A program made the position numbers and the translations under genes. Under the pieces are notes generated by a model. It saw only the letters and a program-made list of their open reading frames with translations. It was not told where the DNA came from and ran no database searches. 64,000 nt of DNA from Oscillospiraceae bacterium. GTDB lineage: Bacteria > Bacillota > Clostridia > Oscillospirales > Ruminococcaceae. Below are positions 4,235-62,072 of the stretch, in pieces. The stretch lies in contig SVNC01000008.1 in NCBI GenBank assembly GCA_015067025.1, positions 1 through 64,000 on the forward strand. The letters are read 5' to 3'. Position 1 is the first letter of the stretch. Each line of letters opens with the position of its first letter.

Positions 4235-4402
4235 TTTAGTGAAGTTTGGCTTTGCCGAGTGAAGCAGCGACGATGCCGCTGTGAAGTATTGTGCTTTGCA
4301 CAATGTGAAGTTAAGTGTGCCACTCACGCCCGCAGGCACTTCACAATGCGAAGCATTGCTTCACACACGCAGTGTGCTTCACGTGCCGCAAGGCACACTT
4401 AG
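4235..4402. repeat. Cluster of hairpins joined by GTGAAG/CTTCAC linkers
   Basis: A non-coding stretch made of small hairpins. On the left each hairpin is separated by GTGAAG or TGAAGT (for example CAGCG/CGCTG and ATTGTGC TTT GCACAAT); on the right the linkers flip to CTTCAC (AATGC GAA GCATT, ACAC GCA GTGT, GTGCC GCAA GGCAC). The whole block therefore reads as one large imperfect inverted repeat of smaller palindromes. No reading frame is supported. Confidence 0.6.
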
Positions 4403-4404
4403 TT

Positions 4405-4448
4405 CGAAAAAGGATACATTTGTCTATCTGACAAATGTATCCTTTTCG
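4405..4448 (-). terminator. Terminator of tRNA-Arg
   Basis: Long stem with AAAGGATACATTTGT / ACAAATGTATCCTTT arms, one base after the tRNA 3' CCA on the minus strand, ending in a T run. Confidence 0.85.
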
Positions 4449-4525
4449 TGGCGCGCCTAACGGGATTCGAACCCACGGCACACAGCGTCGGAGGCTGTTG
4501 CTCTATCCAGCTGAGCTACAGGCGC
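4449..4525 (-). tRNA. tRNA-Arg (anticodon CCG)
   Basis: The minus strand folds as a complete tRNA: acceptor GCGCCTG / TAGGCGC, D arm GCTC...GAGC, anticodon stem ACAGC / GCTGT with loop CTCCGAC (anticodon CCG, reading CGG), and a T arm with GTTCGAATC. The discriminator is G and the CCA end is encoded (4449-4451). A terminator follows at once. The only good promoter upstream is at 4832-4860, beyond a 238-bp mobile element and two hairpins. Confidence 0.95.
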
Positions 4526-4535
4526 ATATTATCAA

Positions 4536-4562
4536 AGCGGATAGTTTTTATCACTATCCGCT
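4536..4562. repeat. Target-site duplication (tRNA side) of the 4563-4800 element
   Basis: 27-bp hairpin with arms AGCGGATAGT / ACTATCCGCT, repeated with one mismatch at 4801-4827 on the other side of the element. The sequence is unlike the flanks of the second element copy, so it belongs to the locus and not to the element. Confidence 0.8.
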
Positions 4563-4800
4563 CAGACTGAAGACAAACTCACGCACCGCAAAAATGCATA
4601 ATTTTTTCGAATTTTATGAGCAAGTATAAAATTCATGTACAGAAGTTTAGGGGAGTCGTTTTCGGCTCCCCTAAAGCATTTTTGCTTACTTCGTCAACAG
4701 CCATCTACCGTACCATTGTACGCCGACGATGGCTATTTCCTCGTCTGCGTGCGTTTTTCACCGTCTGACAGCGTGTAGACAAGACTTTGTCTACACGCTG
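4563..4800 (-). mobile_element. Non-coding hairpin-targeting MITE-like element, copy 1 (238 bp)
   Basis: Read on the minus strand it begins with CAGCGTGTAGACAAA, part of a 15-bp perfect hairpin, and ends with a sequence whose complement is CAGACTGAAGACAAA; the two termini match at 12 of 15 positions, so they are imperfect terminal inverted repeats. Inside are a 9-bp stem around a 22-nt loop (4697-4736), an AGGGGAG/CTCCCCT hairpin (about 4647-4676), and complementary TGAA/TTCA and ACGCAC/GTGCGT blocks near the ends that could close the whole fold. It aligns along its length with 60127-60366. Both sides carry the same 27-bp hairpin. There is no transposase or other gene, so it would need an outside transposase. 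It lies between a promoter and tRNA-Arg. Confidence 0.8.
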
Positions 4801-4827
4801 AGCGGATAGTTTTTATTACTATCCGCT
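4801..4827. repeat. Target-site duplication (promoter side) of the 4563-4800 element
   Basis: Second copy of the 27-bp hairpin found at 4536-4562 (one C/T difference in the loop). Confidence 0.8.
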
Positions 4828-4862: not shown

Positions 4863-6122
4863 TTACTTTAAAAGCACTTCACAAGCTGCTAATTTTACAG
4901 CTACACAGAATACTTCCATAGCTGTTGCAAGCTCTTCGATCGTAGGATATGTGGGAGCAATTCTGATATTCTTATCCTCGGGGTCAATTCCGTAAGGATA
5001 GGTTGCACCTGCACCTGTAAGCACTACGCCTGCATTCTTGCAAAGCTCTACAGTTCTCTTTGCTGTGCCTGCAAGACCGTTGAAGGAGATGAAGTAACCG
5101 CCGTTGGGCTTGTGCCACTGACCAAACTCAATAGGAGCTATCTCCTTGTCAAGAGCATTAAGCACTATATCAAACTTGGGAGCGATTATTTCTCTGTGCT
5201 TTACCATATGAGTCTTGATACCATCGAAATTCTTAAAGAATCTTGCATGTCTTAACTGGTTCAGCTTATCAAAACCGATAGTCTGATACGTCATCTGGCT
5301 CTTAATAAATTCGATATTTGCCGCACTTGCACCGATTACTGCAAGACCGCCACCCGGGAAGGAGATCTTTGATGTGGATGTGAACATAAACACCATATCT
5401 TCCTTGCCTGTCTTTTTAGCTTCTTCTAAAAGATTTAAAAGTGTATCGGGGGTATCTGTAAGGTGATGTACGCAGTAAGCGTTATCCCAGAAAATTCTGA
5501 AGTCCTTAGCCTTAGGTGAAAGGTTTGCAAATCTCTTTACAACTTCATCTGAATACGTGATGCCTTCAGGGTTGCTGTACATAGGTACGCACCAGATACC
5601 CTTGATAAGTTCATCTTCTGCAACAAGCTTTTCAACTATATCCATATCAGGACCGTCTGCTTTGTAGGGAACTGTGATCATTTCAATACCCATGCTCTGG
5701 CAGATTGCAAAGTGTCTGTCATATCCGGGAGCGGGGCAGAGGAATTTAACCTTTTCATTCTTGCTCCAGGGCTTGTCGCCGTGAAGAACACCTAAGAGCA
5801 TTGCTCTTGCTATTGTATCATACATAAGCTGAAGGCTGGAGTTACCACCGATGATGATTTCATCTTCCTTAACTCCGAGCATAGGCATACAAAGTTCCTT
5901 TGCCTCTTTGATACCGTCAAGAATACCGTAGTTACGGCAGTCTGTGCCGTTTTCGGAGATGCATTCACCGTCAAGGCAGTGTGTCAGCATATCAAGTGTT
6001 AAATCAAGCTGGCTTGGTGCAGGCTTGCCTCTTGACATATCAAGCTTTAAGCCCTTGGCACACAGCTCTTTGTACTGAGCCTCAGCCTGTTCTTTTATTG
6101 CAACGATTTCGTTTCTTTCCAT
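4863..6122 (-). CDS. Aspartate aminotransferase-like class I PLP enzyme
   Basis: 419-residue fold-type I aminotransferase. The N-terminal LDMSRGKPAPSQLDL resembles the subgroup of aspartate aminotransferases represented by the corynebacterial enzyme (Pfam Asp_aminotransf), and not the common AspC/AspB group. The PLP lysine is in FTSTSKISFPGGG, the cofactor-ring contact in WDNAYCVHHL, and the substrate carboxylate arginine in the C-terminal NIRIAPTYPT. It would exchange amino groups between aspartate and 2-oxoglutarate in the cytoplasm; substrate choice is inferred from subgroup. It has its own promoter (6177-6205), and a promoter facing the same way starts two bases after its stop. Confidence 0.85.
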   Translation of the reverse strand: MERNEIVAIKEQAEAQYKELCAKGLKLDMSRGKPAPSQLDLTLDMLTHCLDGECISENGTDCRNYGILDGIKEAKELCMPMLGVKEDEIIIGGNSSLQLMYDTIARAMLLGVLHGDKPWSKNEKVKFLCPAPGYDRHFAICQSMGIEMITVPYKADGPDMDIVEKLVAEDELIKGIWCVPMYSNPEGITYSDEVVKRFANLSPKAKDFRIFWDNAYCVHHLTDTPDTLLNLLEEAKKTGKEDMVFMFTSTSKISFPGGGLAVIGASAANIEFIKSQMTYQTIGFDKLNQLRHARFFKNFDGIKTHMVKHREIIAPKFDIVLNALDKEIAPIEFGQWHKPNGGYFISFNGLAGTAKRTVELCKNAGVVLTGAGATYPYGIDPEDKNIRIAPTYPTIEELATAMEVFCVAVKLAACEVLLK

Positions 6123-58640: not shown

Positions 58641-60071
58641 ATGTTCAAGACTTTTGAAGAAGCAAAAAAATTCTGTACAGAAAAAGGGGTAAAAATGATC
58701 GACTTCAAGATGGTTGATATCGATGGCCGCTGGCGTCATATTGCTATCCCTGAAAGCCGTTTCGTTCCCGATATTATGGAGTCAGGTATCGGATTTGACG
58801 GTTCTAACTACGGCTTTGCGGCAGTAGAAAAGAGCGATATGATTTTTATTCCCGACCTTTCAAGTGCGGCTCTTGACCCCTTTGCAGAGGTTACGACCCT
58901 TTCTATGATCGGTGACGTTTACGTTATCGCAAGTCCAAACTTCCGTTTCAATCAGGACCCCAGAAACGTCTCCAAGCACGCTGTTGAATATTTAAAATCA
59001 ACAGGTATTGCAGATGAAATGATCATCGGTCCTGAATTTGAATTCCATCTTTTTGACAACGTTTCCTACAGCGTAAAGCCTGAGGATATGTCCTTCAGCG
59101 TAGATACAAGACAGGCAAGCTGGAACTCAGCTTATACAGACTCTAACAACAAGGGTTATATCACACCCGGTCACAGAGGATATCACGCAGATCTTCCCAA
59201 CGATATTACCTACGATTTAAGAAGCCGTATCTGCCTTATGCTTGAAGAAAGAGATATCAAGGTTAAATATCATCACCACGAAGTAGGCGGTTCAGGTCAG
59301 GTTGAAATCGAAGTAGAACTTGGCGAGCTTACAAAGATGGCTGATAATACAATGACTATAAAGTATATGGTTAAGAACGCTGCATTACAGGACGGCAGAA
59401 CAGCAACCTTTATGCCAAAGCCCATCTACAGCGAAGCAGGTAACGGTATGCACGTTCATATGCTTTTATTCAAGGATGGCAAGCCTGTATTCTACGATCC
59501 TAACGGCTACAGCGAATTATCCGAAACAGCTCTTTACTTTATCGGCGGTCTGTTAAAGCACGCTCGTTCACTCTGCGGTTTTACAAATCCCTCTACAAAC
59601 TCCTATAAGAGACTTGTACCCGGCTTTGAAGCACCCGTTACCATCGGTTACGCTACGTCAAACAGAAGTGCGGTCATCCGTATTCCTGCATATGCAAAGG
59701 CTCCCGACAAGCGTCGTTTCGAGCTTCGTAGCCCTGACGCTACCTGCAATCCCTACTATGCTTATGCGGCTATCCTTATGGCAGGTATTGACGGCGTAAA
59801 GAACAAGATCGATCCCTCAAAGTGCGGCTGGGGTCCCTTCGACTTCAACCTTTACACACTTTCTGACGAAGAAAAGGCAAAGATTCAGTCACTTCCCAGA
59901 ACCTTAGAAGAAGCTCTTGACGCTCTTGAAGCAGACCACGATTATCTTACAGAAGGCGGAGTATTCCCTGAAAGACTTATCGAGATCTGGCTCAAGAAAA
60001 AGCGTGCAGAAGCGGCGGCTATCAGCAAAATTCCTCATCCCGCTGAATTTGCAAATTACTATGACCTTTAA
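58641..60071 (+). CDS. glnA: Glutamine synthetase type I
   Basis: 476 residues; makes glutamine from glutamate, ammonia and ATP. Beta-grasp N-terminus (about 1-105), then the catalytic domain with EFEFHLFD, HEVGGSGQVEIEVELG, NGMHVHMLLFKDG, SYKRLVPGFEAPV and RFELRSPDATCNPY. The region where adenylylated enzymes have their tyrosine reads FNLYTLSDEEK. In the N-terminal loop the family usually has GFxRIEESDM; here it is GFAAVEKSDM, so the Arg implicated in glutamine feedback in Bacillus GS is replaced by Ala61. Monocistronic, ending in a terminator that has been invaded by the element at 60127. Confidence 0.95.
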   Translation: MFKTFEEAKKFCTEKGVKMIDFKMVDIDGRWRHIAIPESRFVPDIMESGIGFDGSNYGFAAVEKSDMIFIPDLSSAALDPFAEVTTLSMIGDVYVIASPNFRFNQDPRNVSKHAVEYLKSTGIADEMIIGPEFEFHLFDNVSYSVKPEDMSFSVDTRQASWNSAYTDSNNKGYITPGHRGYHADLPNDITYDLRSRICLMLEERDIKVKYHHHEVGGSGQVEIEVELGELTKMADNTMTIKYMVKNAALQDGRTATFMPKPIYSEAGNGMHVHMLLFKDGKPVFYDPNGYSELSETALYFIGGLLKHARSLCGFTNPSTNSYKRLVPGFEAPVTIGYATSNRSAVIRIPAYAKAPDKRRFELRSPDATCNPYYAYAAILMAGIDGVKNKIDPSKCGWGPFDFNLYTLSDEEKAKIQSLPRTLEEALDALEADHDYLTEGGVFPERLIEIWLKKKRAEAAAISKIPHPAEFANYYDL

Positions 60072-60095: not shown

Positions 60096-60126
60096 AAGGC
60101 AGATAACGGTTTTGTTATCTGCCTTT
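60096..60126. terminator. glnA terminator, left duplicate flanking the mobile element
   Basis: Hairpin AAGGCAGATAAC / GTTATCTGCCTTT with loop GGTTTT; the same sequence recurs at 60368-60398 on the other side of the element. Confidence 0.85.
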
Positions 60127-60366
60127 CAGCGTGTAGACAAAGTTTTGTCTACACGCTGTCAGACGATGAAAAACGCACGCAGACGAGGAACCTGACGCCG
60201 TCGGCGTACGATGGTACGGTAGGCGTCAGGTGACAAAGTAAGCAAAAATGCTTTAGGGAAGCCGTTTTCGGCTTTCCTAAACTTTTGTATCAACGTTTTT
60301 ATATGCTTGCAAGATAAACGCAAAATTTTACGCATTTTTGCGGTGCGTGAGTTTGTCTTCAGTCTG
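60127..60366 (+). mobile_element. Non-coding hairpin-targeting MITE-like element, copy 2 (240 bp)
   Basis: Full-length relative of 4563-4800 in the opposite orientation. It starts CAGCGTGTAGACAAA as a 15-bp hairpin (60127-60158) and ends CTTCAGTCTG, giving the same imperfect terminal inverted repeats. The internal stem CCTGACGCC / GGCGTCAGG (60191-60230) keeps pairing despite six base-pair differences from copy 1. The second hairpin is AGGGAAGCCG / CGGCTTTCCT. No protein frame. It sits inside the terminator shared by glnA and the convergent histidine kinase; both sides keep a complete hairpin, so neither gene loses termination. Confidence 0.8.
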
Positions 60367-60367
60367 A

Positions 60368-60398
60368 AAGGCAGATAACGGTTTTGTTATCTGCCTTT
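60368..60398. terminator. Shared glnA/kinase terminator, right duplicate
   Basis: Same 31-bp hairpin as 60096-60126, followed by TTTTG on the plus strand and, on the minus strand, only three bases beyond the kinase stop. Confidence 0.85.
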
Positions 60399-60400
60399 TG

Positions 60401-61396
60401 CTATACCGTAGACTTGTAAAAAATAATAGTAAACTTAACACCTTTATCTGTGTTTTCTGCTCTTATGATACCATCGTGCTCATTTACTATTTGCTTTGAT
60501 AGGGCAAGCCCTATGCCGTAGCCCTGATGATTTACGTTGTCGGTTTTATAATATCTTTCAAAAATATGAGGGAAATCCTTTTTCGATATTCTGTTACCGC
60601 CGCCCTCTACGGTTATCGTCACCGCAAGAGCGTTTTCTTCTGAGCTTATCACTATTTTACTGTCGCTGTTGCTGTGTTCTATACAGTTTTTGATTATATT
60701 CTGCAACGCCTCATTGCACCATCTGAAATCTGCAACAAGCTTTTCATTGCCTGCAACTGTCACAAGCTCTGTTTCTTTAAGCTCTGCCATAATGAGAAGC
60801 GGTTCTGTGGCACTTTTTATAAGTTCAACACACGCAAATTCCTTTTTCTCCATTGTTATAGCCTTTGCTTCGAAGGAGGATAGCTTTAAAAGCGTGTCAA
60901 TAAGCCATTCTGTTTTTAAAATAAGCATTGAAAGATCTCTTACGTATTTTTTTCTGTCGCTGTCAGAAAGCTCCTTTGTTCTCAGCATAGTCAGTATTAT
61001 AGACATAGAGGTGAGCGGAGTCTTTAACTGATGTGATATATCTGCAAGACTGTCCTTTAAAATTATCTTATCATTTTTAAGTTTATTGTTCTGCTCTCTT
61101 ATCTTTGTAGTCATCTTGCCGATTTCGGTTTTTAAGATGCTGATATCTCCCTCTTCATAGCTGTCAAAGGATATACTGTCATCGCCGCTTAAGATCTTAT
61201 CTATATCATCACAGAGCAAGCTCAGCTTATTACATCTTGCTTTAGCCGCAATAATCCCTGCTATAATGATAAGAAGTGATGAAACAGCGACAATAATACA
61301 GGCAGTTGGATTAATAAAAATGCAGATAACACAGGCTATAACAGAAATTAATATCTGTGCCGCAAGCTGAAAGCAAAGCTCCTTATTCCTGAGCAT
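60401..61396 (-). CDS. Sensor histidine kinase, intramembrane-sensing (BceS-like)
   Basis: 331 residues. Two membrane helices with almost no outside loop (about 10-28 and 33-52), the layout of intramembrane-sensing kinases that respond to antimicrobial peptides through an ABC transporter. The phospho-acceptor is in DISHQLKTPLTS, the ATP-binding N box in NIIKNCIEHS and the G box in GYGIGLALSKQI. The frame starts earlier (61429), inside the regulator gene, but ATG 61396 has GGGAG nine bases upstream and starts just after the regulator stop. Partner regulator is directly upstream. Confidence 0.87.
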   Translation of the reverse strand: MLRNKELCFQLAAQILISVIACVICIFINPTACIIVAVSSLLIIIAGIIAAKARCNKLSLLCDDIDKILSGDDSISFDSYEEGDISILKTEIGKMTTKIREQNNKLKNDKIILKDSLADISHQLKTPLTSMSIILTMLRTKELSDSDRKKYVRDLSMLILKTEWLIDTLLKLSSFEAKAITMEKKEFACVELIKSATEPLLIMAELKETELVTVAGNEKLVADFRWCNEALQNIIKNCIEHSNSDSKIVISSEENALAVTITVEGGGNRISKKDFPHIFERYYKTDNVNHQGYGIGLALSKQIVNEHDGIIRAENTDKGVKFTIIFYKSTV

Positions 61397-61397
61397 T

Positions 61398-62072
61398 TTA
61401 TTCATCTCCCATTCTGTAGCCGAGTCCACGGACGGTTACTATTATTTTCGGGTCTTTAGGGTCATCGCCTATCTTTTCTCTTACTCTTTTTATATAAACG
61501 GTGAGAGTGTTGTCGGTGATGAATTCTCCTCCTGTGGTCCATAATTCATCTATAAGCTGCTCTCTTGAAAAAAGCCTGCCCTTGTTAGAAATAAATATAA
61601 GCAGCAGTCTGTATTCAAGCGCTGATAGAAAAAGCTCCTCATTGCCCTTTGTTACACTGCCCTTTACAATATCCACCTTTATATCACCGTGGCAAAGCTC
61701 GTGAGTTTTGCCGCTATGCCTTTTAGTTACGGTTTTTATTCTTGCTACTAATTCACGGGGAGAAAAGGGCTTTTTGATATAATCATCCGCACCAAGCTCC
61801 AGTCCTGCGATAACGCTTGCTTCATCACCTGAGGCGGTGAGAAATATTATCGGCACGTCTGATTTTTCCCTGACCTTTGAGCAGACCGAAAAGCCGTTTC
61901 CGTCAGGAAGAGATATATCCAGCAGGATACAGTCAGGATCACAGCCTGATATAAGCTTTAATCCTTCTGTCTGCCCCTTTGCTCCGAATACGGTATAGCC
62001 CTCGGTCCTTAAATAGTCTGAAAGGCTGTCAAGGATATTTATATCGTCTTCTATTATAACTATTCTTTTCAC
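61398..62072 (-). CDS. OmpR-family response regulator
   Basis: 224 residues: receiver domain (VKRIVIIEDDINILDSLSDY, phospho-Asp in DCILLDISLPDG, Lys in KKPFSPRELVARI) and winged-helix DNA-binding domain (LSALEYRLLLIFISNKGRLF, RVREKIGDDPKDPKIIVTVR, ending GLGYRMGDE). GTG 62072 is chosen as start because GGTGGTGA precedes it and the product begins exactly at the receiver fold. Divergent from the ABC transporter genes; a palindrome at 62141-62156 lies in the promoter region between them. Confidence 0.9.
   Translation of the reverse strand: MKRIVIIEDDINILDSLSDYLRTEGYTVFGAKGQTEGLKLISGCDPDCILLDISLPDGNGFSVCSKVREKSDVPIIFLTASGDEASVIAGLELGADDYIKKPFSPRELVARIKTVTKRHSGKTHELCHGDIKVDIVKGSVTKGNEELFLSALEYRLLLIFISNKGRLFSREQLIDELWTTGGEFITDNTLTVYIKRVREKIGDDPKDPKIIVTVRGLGYRMGDE

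Follow-up and report, generated by a model that had tools for sequence, protein, structure and literature searches.

A 238-bp non-coding element in the genome of an Oscillospiraceae bacterium is very probably a non-autonomous transposon (MITE) which inserts at terminator hairpins, duplicates the whole hairpin in doing so, and is served in trans by a transposase of the IS1182 family. The element has moved, since it is present in many copies and orthologous empty sites exist, and its target is the hairpin at the 3' ends of genes. The duplication is the hairpin itself, and its length therefore varies with the hairpin. Insertion sequences of the IS1182 family in the same order have similar terminal repeats and leave the same duplications. 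We hold the class of mechanism more firmly than the identity of the enzyme.

The focal element and its empty sites

The features at the two sites found in the window (the whole stretch of 64,000 nucleotides that was analysed) are collected in Table 1. Direct reading confirmed the 238-bp block and its imperfect 15-bp terminal inverted repeats, CAGACTGAAGACAAA and, reversed, CAGCGTGTAGACAAA, which agree at 12/15 positions. The block lies between direct repeats of the 27-bp hairpin AGCGGATAGTTTTTATYACTATCCGCT, the two copies being 26/27 identical. As the initial annotation had it, this hairpin is unique to the locus: with up to three mismatches allowed it has just these two occurrences in the window, where 0 were expected. 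Absent from that annotation is the left end of the element, which is a perfect hairpin by itself with a stem of 14 bp. Folded as RNA together with both flanking hairpins, the element is far more stable than shuffled sequences (z -12.6), and the element alone as DNA gave a fold z of -10.9 against shuffles. A Gut-1-like RNA (RF01706) adjoins it at 4333–4405 on the minus strand (43.4 bits, against a gathering score of 50); another, at positions 4905–4982 of locus L224, scored 56.9 bits.

Table 1. Features at the focal and second element sites of the window
Feature	Position	Strand	Remark
tRNA-Arg(ccg), flanking the focal site on one side	4449..4525	-	
Target hairpin, first copy, 27 bp	4536..4562	.	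three relatives have a single homologous copy at their empty site
238-bp non-coding element	4563..4800	-	minus strand gives the hairpin-first reading
Right terminal inverted repeat, CAGACTGAAGACAAA	4563..4577	+	
Core motif CGTCGGCGTACNNNNGTACGGTAGA, most conserved	4704..4728	-	tip of stem; lower stem hypervariable but compensated
Left-end hairpin, terminal repeat paired with its own inverted copy	4769..4800	-	
Left terminal inverted repeat, CAGCGTGTAGACAAA	4786..4800	-	
Target hairpin, second copy	4801..4827	.	T run follows; terminator-like on the + strand
Aspartate aminotransferase type Ic gene	4863..6122	-	3' end faces the focal site
Glutamine synthetase (glnA) gene	58641..60071	+	3' end faces the second site
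Hairpin at second element, first copy, 31 bp	60096..60126	.	
Second element copy, 240 bp, 83% identical	60127..60366	+	orientation opposite to the focal element
Hairpin at second element, second copy	60367..60398	.	
Histidine kinase-like gene (no model over cut-off)	60401..61429	-	convergent with glnA; 3' end faces the second site

The second copy in the window has the same kind of ends and a duplicated hairpin which differs from the focal one, again as first described. Its hairpins match exactly over 31 bp (60096–60126 and 60368–60398), or at 31/32 positions if one extra base is included. The search for further copies that had been proposed gave 27 element matches in the window's genome. Thirteen of them make up 10 two-ended copies; another 3 are one-ended, 2 are degenerate and 9 are self-complementary hits. 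All ten two-ended copies have a matching hairpin on both sides, each locus its own, the duplicated hairpins measuring 27, 29, 24, 27, 32, 26, 36, 26, 28 and 23 bp with 0–2 mismatches. The one-ended copies (L009, L012 and L015) keep the hairpin at the surviving end, imperfectly in L015. Two different hairpins flank L058, and likewise L036. At positions 1501–1533 of L036 (G000:C4:8918) there is a 33-bp hairpin which amounts to roughly the two terminal repeats only.

Relatives were then compared at these loci. The focal site was searched in six genomes and is empty in three of them (G431, G425 and G427), where the alignments of the left and right flanks overlap by exactly 24 bp and a single, homologous hairpin, AAAGCGGATAG-ATTTTA-CTATCCGCTTT, is present. 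Both focal hairpin copies resemble it. G022 and G004 have one unrelated hairpin at this site, and the match listed in G428 is tRNA-like only. Joined-flank queries for five other loci (L002, L004, L005, L006 and L008), searched in 71 genomes of the same genus, gave alignments across the joint for L004, L006 and L008; for L002 and L005 there was none among the matches listed. The site of L006 (window position 60127) holds a single hairpin of unrelated sequence in G431, G425 and G427. At that of L008, G431 has one hairpin homologous to the duplicated one and G425 has the same hairpin, matched by the left flank alone, and G427 has one unrelated hairpin, matched by the right flank alone. At the L004 site both G425 and G427 show a single hairpin, whose arms are similar in G425; in G431 the stretch ends too early for a judgement. 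Thus loci lacking the element hold one hairpin, as the initial annotation anticipated, at the focal site (three genomes) and at three of the five other loci tried, and two hairpins were found at none of the empty sites read.

Distribution and target duplication across the order

Using a covariance model of the 5' half of the element, we searched 394 genomes of the order, representing 168 genera, and found it in 37/394 genomes and 18/168 genera. Copy numbers from this survey are lower bounds, at most eight candidates per genome having been scored. Scanning named genomes for the core motif gave at least 120 stretches, nearly all of them with titles naming Clostridia, Oscillospiraceae, Ruminococcus or Eubacteriales, and many from ruminant guts. 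Copies are also carried by a cultured organism, Ructibacterium gallinarum DSM 107454. An outlier is L250, whose core motif is on a contig assigned to Muribaculaceae (Bacteroidota), a placement which may be a binning error.

Element ends were placed in two ways. A first end-finder, which ignores duplication, placed both ends in 57/134 cores, among which 42 had the same hairpin on both sides, 8 were counted as different, 6 had one hairpin and 1 lay at an edge. The second takes the best-duplication-scoring pair among the candidate ends; 132 cores yielded 73 placed elements and 58 without placeable ends, one duplicate being dropped. The score for whole-hairpin duplication was reached by 53/73 elements with ends placed in this manner, and by about 61/73 once the remaining 20 had been read by eye. 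The eight cases added by eye (L140, L159, L172, L181, L215, L219, L225 and L226) have the same hairpin twice, altered by an indel, by decay or by a flipped loop, or affected by a contig edge or a wrongly placed boundary. Two different hairpins are present in 3/73 (L081, L173 and L230), L079 is ambiguous, and the right side could not be assessed in eight (L143, L149, L155, L162, L200, L206, L223 and L235). When each left flank was mispaired with every other right flank, ends as placed, 0/5256 combinations reached the same threshold. Together with the one-hairpin empty sites, these figures support the original proposal of a MITE of a palindrome-recognising transposase that leaves a duplication as long as the hairpin, and the observation is general beyond the window.

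Among the clean cases (n=49), 34 duplications are perfect; trimmed to the palindrome they measure 15–38 bp, and 39/49 begin with A and end with T. Gene orientation was called by a simple ORF rule wherever the flank was long enough (47 cases): the genes on both sides are directed at the element in 20, a single one is in 24, and in 3 neither is. At least one gene therefore points at the element in 44/47, as expected for terminator targets. The neighbour points toward the element equally often upstream (32/47) and downstream (32/47), giving no sign of selection for read-through.

Two arrangements seen in the course of the survey deserve mention. In L151 the second hairpin copy is directly followed by another CAGTCTGTCGAAAAA end, as if one hairpin were common to two elements. 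Genome G272 contains a second short repeat of about 175 bp (L326, L327 and L328), with ends like GAGCGTGTCAAAAAA and CAGACTGTCGAAAAA.

A conserved folded interior

The interior was studied in two alignments. The first, of 13 full elements, was built without structure, and its pairs, 60 of which were used, were predicted from that same alignment; 98.1% of the cells pair, and compensatory changes occur in 22 pairs (0/500 shuffles). Further pair types were reached by 4/500 shuffles, which do not preserve relatedness. The second, model-fitted and leaning towards structure, has 83 distinct rows and shows compensatory changes in 23/29 pairs. At the left-end hairpin, changes on both sides are seen in 11/14 pairs of the model-fitted alignment and in 6/14 of the smaller one.

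Read on the hairpin-first strand, the non-Watson-Crick pairs of the first alignment include 34 G-U against 4 A-C, with 12 of the G-U coming from one conserved pair; in the second, with two pairs omitted, the counts are 50 and 17, with 10 of the 17 A-C at one loop-closing pair. Since a double-stranded cruciform should, by our reasoning, show no G-U bias, this points to selection on one single strand, RNA or single-stranded DNA, which is a better reading than a fold serving as a cruciform only.

No Rfam 15 family reached its gathering score on the focal copy, on ten other element loci or on eight loci with the core in other packaging. The hits were weak, sub-threshold and confined to the focal copy, where IMES-3 was rejected at 19.5 bits, far below its gathering score of 55. 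In several copies of the window's genome (L005/L010, L011/L014, L013/L016 and L027) the core stem has GTAC arms whose apical loop contains an additional structured insert of about 70 bp.

The core in other packaging is found at L158, L160, L167, L176, L192, L216, L224 and L237. Three of these (L160, L216 and L237, from one MAG, SIG520) constitute a type 2: near-identical repeats with the core motif and ends GGGGGTAGCTCAG...GAGCC, GGGG/CCCC pairing, and an A run on one side and a T run on the other, without hairpin duplication. A third type occurs at L158, L167, L176, L192 and, twice, L224; by eye, several of these lie just 5' of start codons. Sequence comparison thus suggests that the core is a module that can be packaged differently, and the interior may be a putative structured RNA that is carried along. 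A tentative extension is that the interior might be a structured RNA domain with a conserved single-strand fold and a function of its own, a transposon cargo and bacterial counterpart of SINEs, which borrowed transposases spread from terminator to terminator across the order; its packaging would possibly be of the IS1182 type in most lineages and of another type in a few. The label MITE given in the initial annotation is apt for a mobile, non-autonomous element; it does not do justice to the interior, which forms a folded domain and is conserved in many genera.

The proposed transposase, its mechanism and its precedents

The full-length insertion sequences with similar ends that the initial annotation suggested looking for do exist in the order, and they belong to the IS1182 family. 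The one in genome G358 (L100) is 1539 bp long, with ends CAGACTGTCGAAAAAG and CAGCCTGTCGAAAAAG, and its transposase scores 405.6 bits for IS1182 against a cut-off of 270, with Pfam matches to DDE_Tnp_1_6, DUF772 and DDE_Tnp_1. Relatives of this transposase at E 1e-30 are present in 30/394 genomes of the order. Of the 30 loci fetched, 14 have placeable ends of the L100 or a similar type, L121 running off its contig; the other 16 are distant, partial or unresolved. The full-length elements measure 1.50–1.60 kb and have ends similar to those of the MITE. The family cut-off was passed by 11/11 transposases tested (385–406 bits, the ten besides L100 scoring 385–405), a set without L120 and L122.

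Whole-hairpin duplication was found in 10/13 of the insertion sequences with both ends placed (L109, L110, L111, L113, L114, L115, L117, L118, L119 and L120), examples being 39/39, 34/34 and 30/30 bp. L112 and L122 lie between different hairpins, and L108, the same insertion as L100, has a hairpin on one side and a MITE copy on the other. Their ends vary, with CAGTTTGTCAAAAAA in L115 and CAGACCGCTGACAAA in L122, the latter as in the MITE L087 of G358. The ends in the window's genome (CAGACTGAAGACAAA) differ somewhat from those of intact IS1182 elements; the nearest IS1182 trace with ends of this type is a piece in G098 with CAGCCTGAAGACAAA (L102/L309). The core motif is missing from 11/11 full-length IS1182 elements checked. 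The 238-bp element is too short for a transposase gene, has none of its own, and is tied to IS1182 by its ends and target alone.

Searches of the window's genome with PF13751, NF033551, PF01609 and the L100 transposase all came back empty. None of 24 element-bearing genomes, this one included, has an IS1182 transposase over the cut-off. Seven of the 24 have sub-threshold matches: a full-length open frame in G231 at 263 bits, just under the cut-off, without ends like these, and six partial ones, of which those in G272 and G019 are at contig ends. PF13751 matches occur in 8/27 element-bearing genomes, intact and with matching ends in G358 alone, and PF01609 yielded just two partial genes in 16 genomes. 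Among the 394 genomes, G358 is the sole overlap between the 37 that are element-positive and the 30 that are transposase-positive. G014, a single-contig genome, contains IS1182 pieces, one of them interrupted by an internal stop, as well as two element matches. As many assemblies are in fragments and two of the partial genes are cut off at contig ends, the absence of the transposase is weak evidence: either it comes and goes, or fragmented assemblies have dropped it, or another enzyme acts. Two kinds of candidate for a larger carrier were discarded. No longer element combining core and gene was present among 59 end-less cores viewed with about 300 downstream bases (contig-end ones excepted), and where terminal repeats stand far apart in G272 and G167, with open frames in between, the regions showed repeats at element-like spacing, a second short repeat or single repeats. 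The IS1182 parentage suggested in the initial annotation therefore stands by anatomy, that is, by ends and hairpin duplication, and not by an intact transposase, which was not found in this genome; since the genome yielded no transposase of the family, it is from this anatomy that we infer mobilisation in trans.

We propose that an IS1182-family DDE transposase acts in trans on the element and that what it would recognise in the target is not the sequence but the folded form, a hairpin or cruciform. Each 3' end of the element would be joined to the 5' foot of the hairpin on one of the two strands, after which repair of the gaps would give a hairpin copy on each side. Because each flanking gene would keep its terminator, insertions should cost little, and this low cost would explain the tens of copies in some relatives. 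For copies between different hairpins (the 3/73 and L058, L036, L112 and L122), recombination between copies is an easy reading and a candidate cause. In L181, L225 and the insertion sequence L117 the loop is inverted between two hairpin copies with matching arms; perhaps this reflects cruciform flipping.

Other explanations must be set against this one. An immobile structured RNA gene or regulatory element, fixed between two terminators, would account for a conserved fold with compensatory changes and for terminator-like hairpins on both sides, but hardly for many copies per genome at unrelated loci, nor for flanking hairpins which match each other and differ between loci. It is barely credible, and because of the orthologous empty sites with one hairpin we reject it as the whole explanation. 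Replacement of the hairpin in the manner of IS1272, an IS1182-family member that targets hairpins (PMC5678879), would have to be followed by recombination or re-evolution of terminators to restore the hairpins. Copies with two different hairpins exist, which speaks for it; however, the two are usually identical, as the 34 perfect duplications among the 49 clean cases attest, and the empty focal site has a hairpin to which both copies of the filled site are similar. Such a history is very improbable overall and is refuted for most copies; it could hold for the type-2 repeats L160, L216 and L237, with their A run on one side and T run on the other.

There remains the enzyme. Hairpin-duplicating insertion might be carried out in element-rich genomes by an unrecognised transposase outside IS1182 which recognises the same kind of ends, and the failure of all 24 element-bearing genomes, several with many copies, to pass the IS1182 cut-off would be in keeping with this, as would the somewhat different ends in the window's genome and the two partial genes from PF01609. 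We nevertheless consider it unlikely, since IS1182 insertion sequences in the same order are similar in both ends and target habit, several element-bearing genomes have traces of IS1182, one of them (L102/L309) beside terminal repeats of nearly the window genome's own type, and the single contig of G014 holds elements and IS1182 pieces together. Mobilisation by an IS1182-family transposase in trans is thus the reading that we prefer.

Precedents support the statement in the initial annotation that IS1182 transposases are reported to target palindromes (PMC5678879, PMC3098183). IS1272 of this family, whose ends are about 16 bp, replaces target hairpins that vary in sequence and length (PMC5678879). 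The present element is like it in using hairpin targets of differing sequence and length, but IS1272 insertion loses the hairpin and makes no duplication, whereas here the hairpin is present twice at filled and once at empty sites, and the element has no transposase gene. Of the three pathways which Wan et al. (2017) draw in the same paper, possible pathway b, with the 3' ends joined where the stem-loop has its 5' feet, would duplicate the stem-loop in full; the present elements are what that pathway predicts. ISCbo5, an IS1182-family element of Clostridium botulinum group III, is found at gene-end hairpins at all sites but one, read by its authors as transcription stop signals (PMC3098183); it shares the target with our non-coding element and is itself an autonomous insertion sequence, in the description of which the text consulted mentions neither a MITE nor whether the hairpin becomes doubled. 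MITEPye1 of Paracoccus yeei is non-coding, has IS1182-like terminal repeats and folds into long stem-loops; unlike the present element it has 4-bp direct repeats and 1–3 copies in chromosomes, and no hairpin duplication is described in the accessible parts of that report (PMC11578231). ISPse1 (PMC3281130) and ISCaa15 (PMC3196728), assigned to IS1182 by their authors, are also listed with 4-bp direct repeats, so that hairpin duplication is not general and would be the habit of part of the family. The long, variable duplications that the initial annotation ascribed to IS1182 hold for 10/13 elements of this order and not for those other members. SPRITE, BOX and RUP are likewise small, repeated, folded intergenic elements, for which the accessible text of PMC10969869 describes no locus-specific hairpin duplication.

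Terminator-hairpin targeting by IS1182 members (PMC3098183, PMC5678879) and a MITE that combines IS1182-like ends with 4-bp repeats (PMC11578231) are therefore in print. No published description of this element, or of any hairpin-duplicating MITE, was found in literature of partial coverage, which is weak evidence. As far as that literature shows, the new findings are a hairpin-duplicating MITE family with empty sites, hairpin duplication by full-length IS1182 elements in the order, and an interior with a conserved fold.

Duplication set by a hairpin fold had previously just been drawn as a possible pathway in the work on IS1272. Here there are many natural cases, some with empty sites, in which the length of the duplication is set by the fold of the target and not by a fixed stagger. 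This suggests a route by which an element can reach high copy number without depriving either neighbouring gene of its end signal, and, in a non-coding transposon which keeps one fold by compensatory change across many genera, the role of the folded interior is directly testable.
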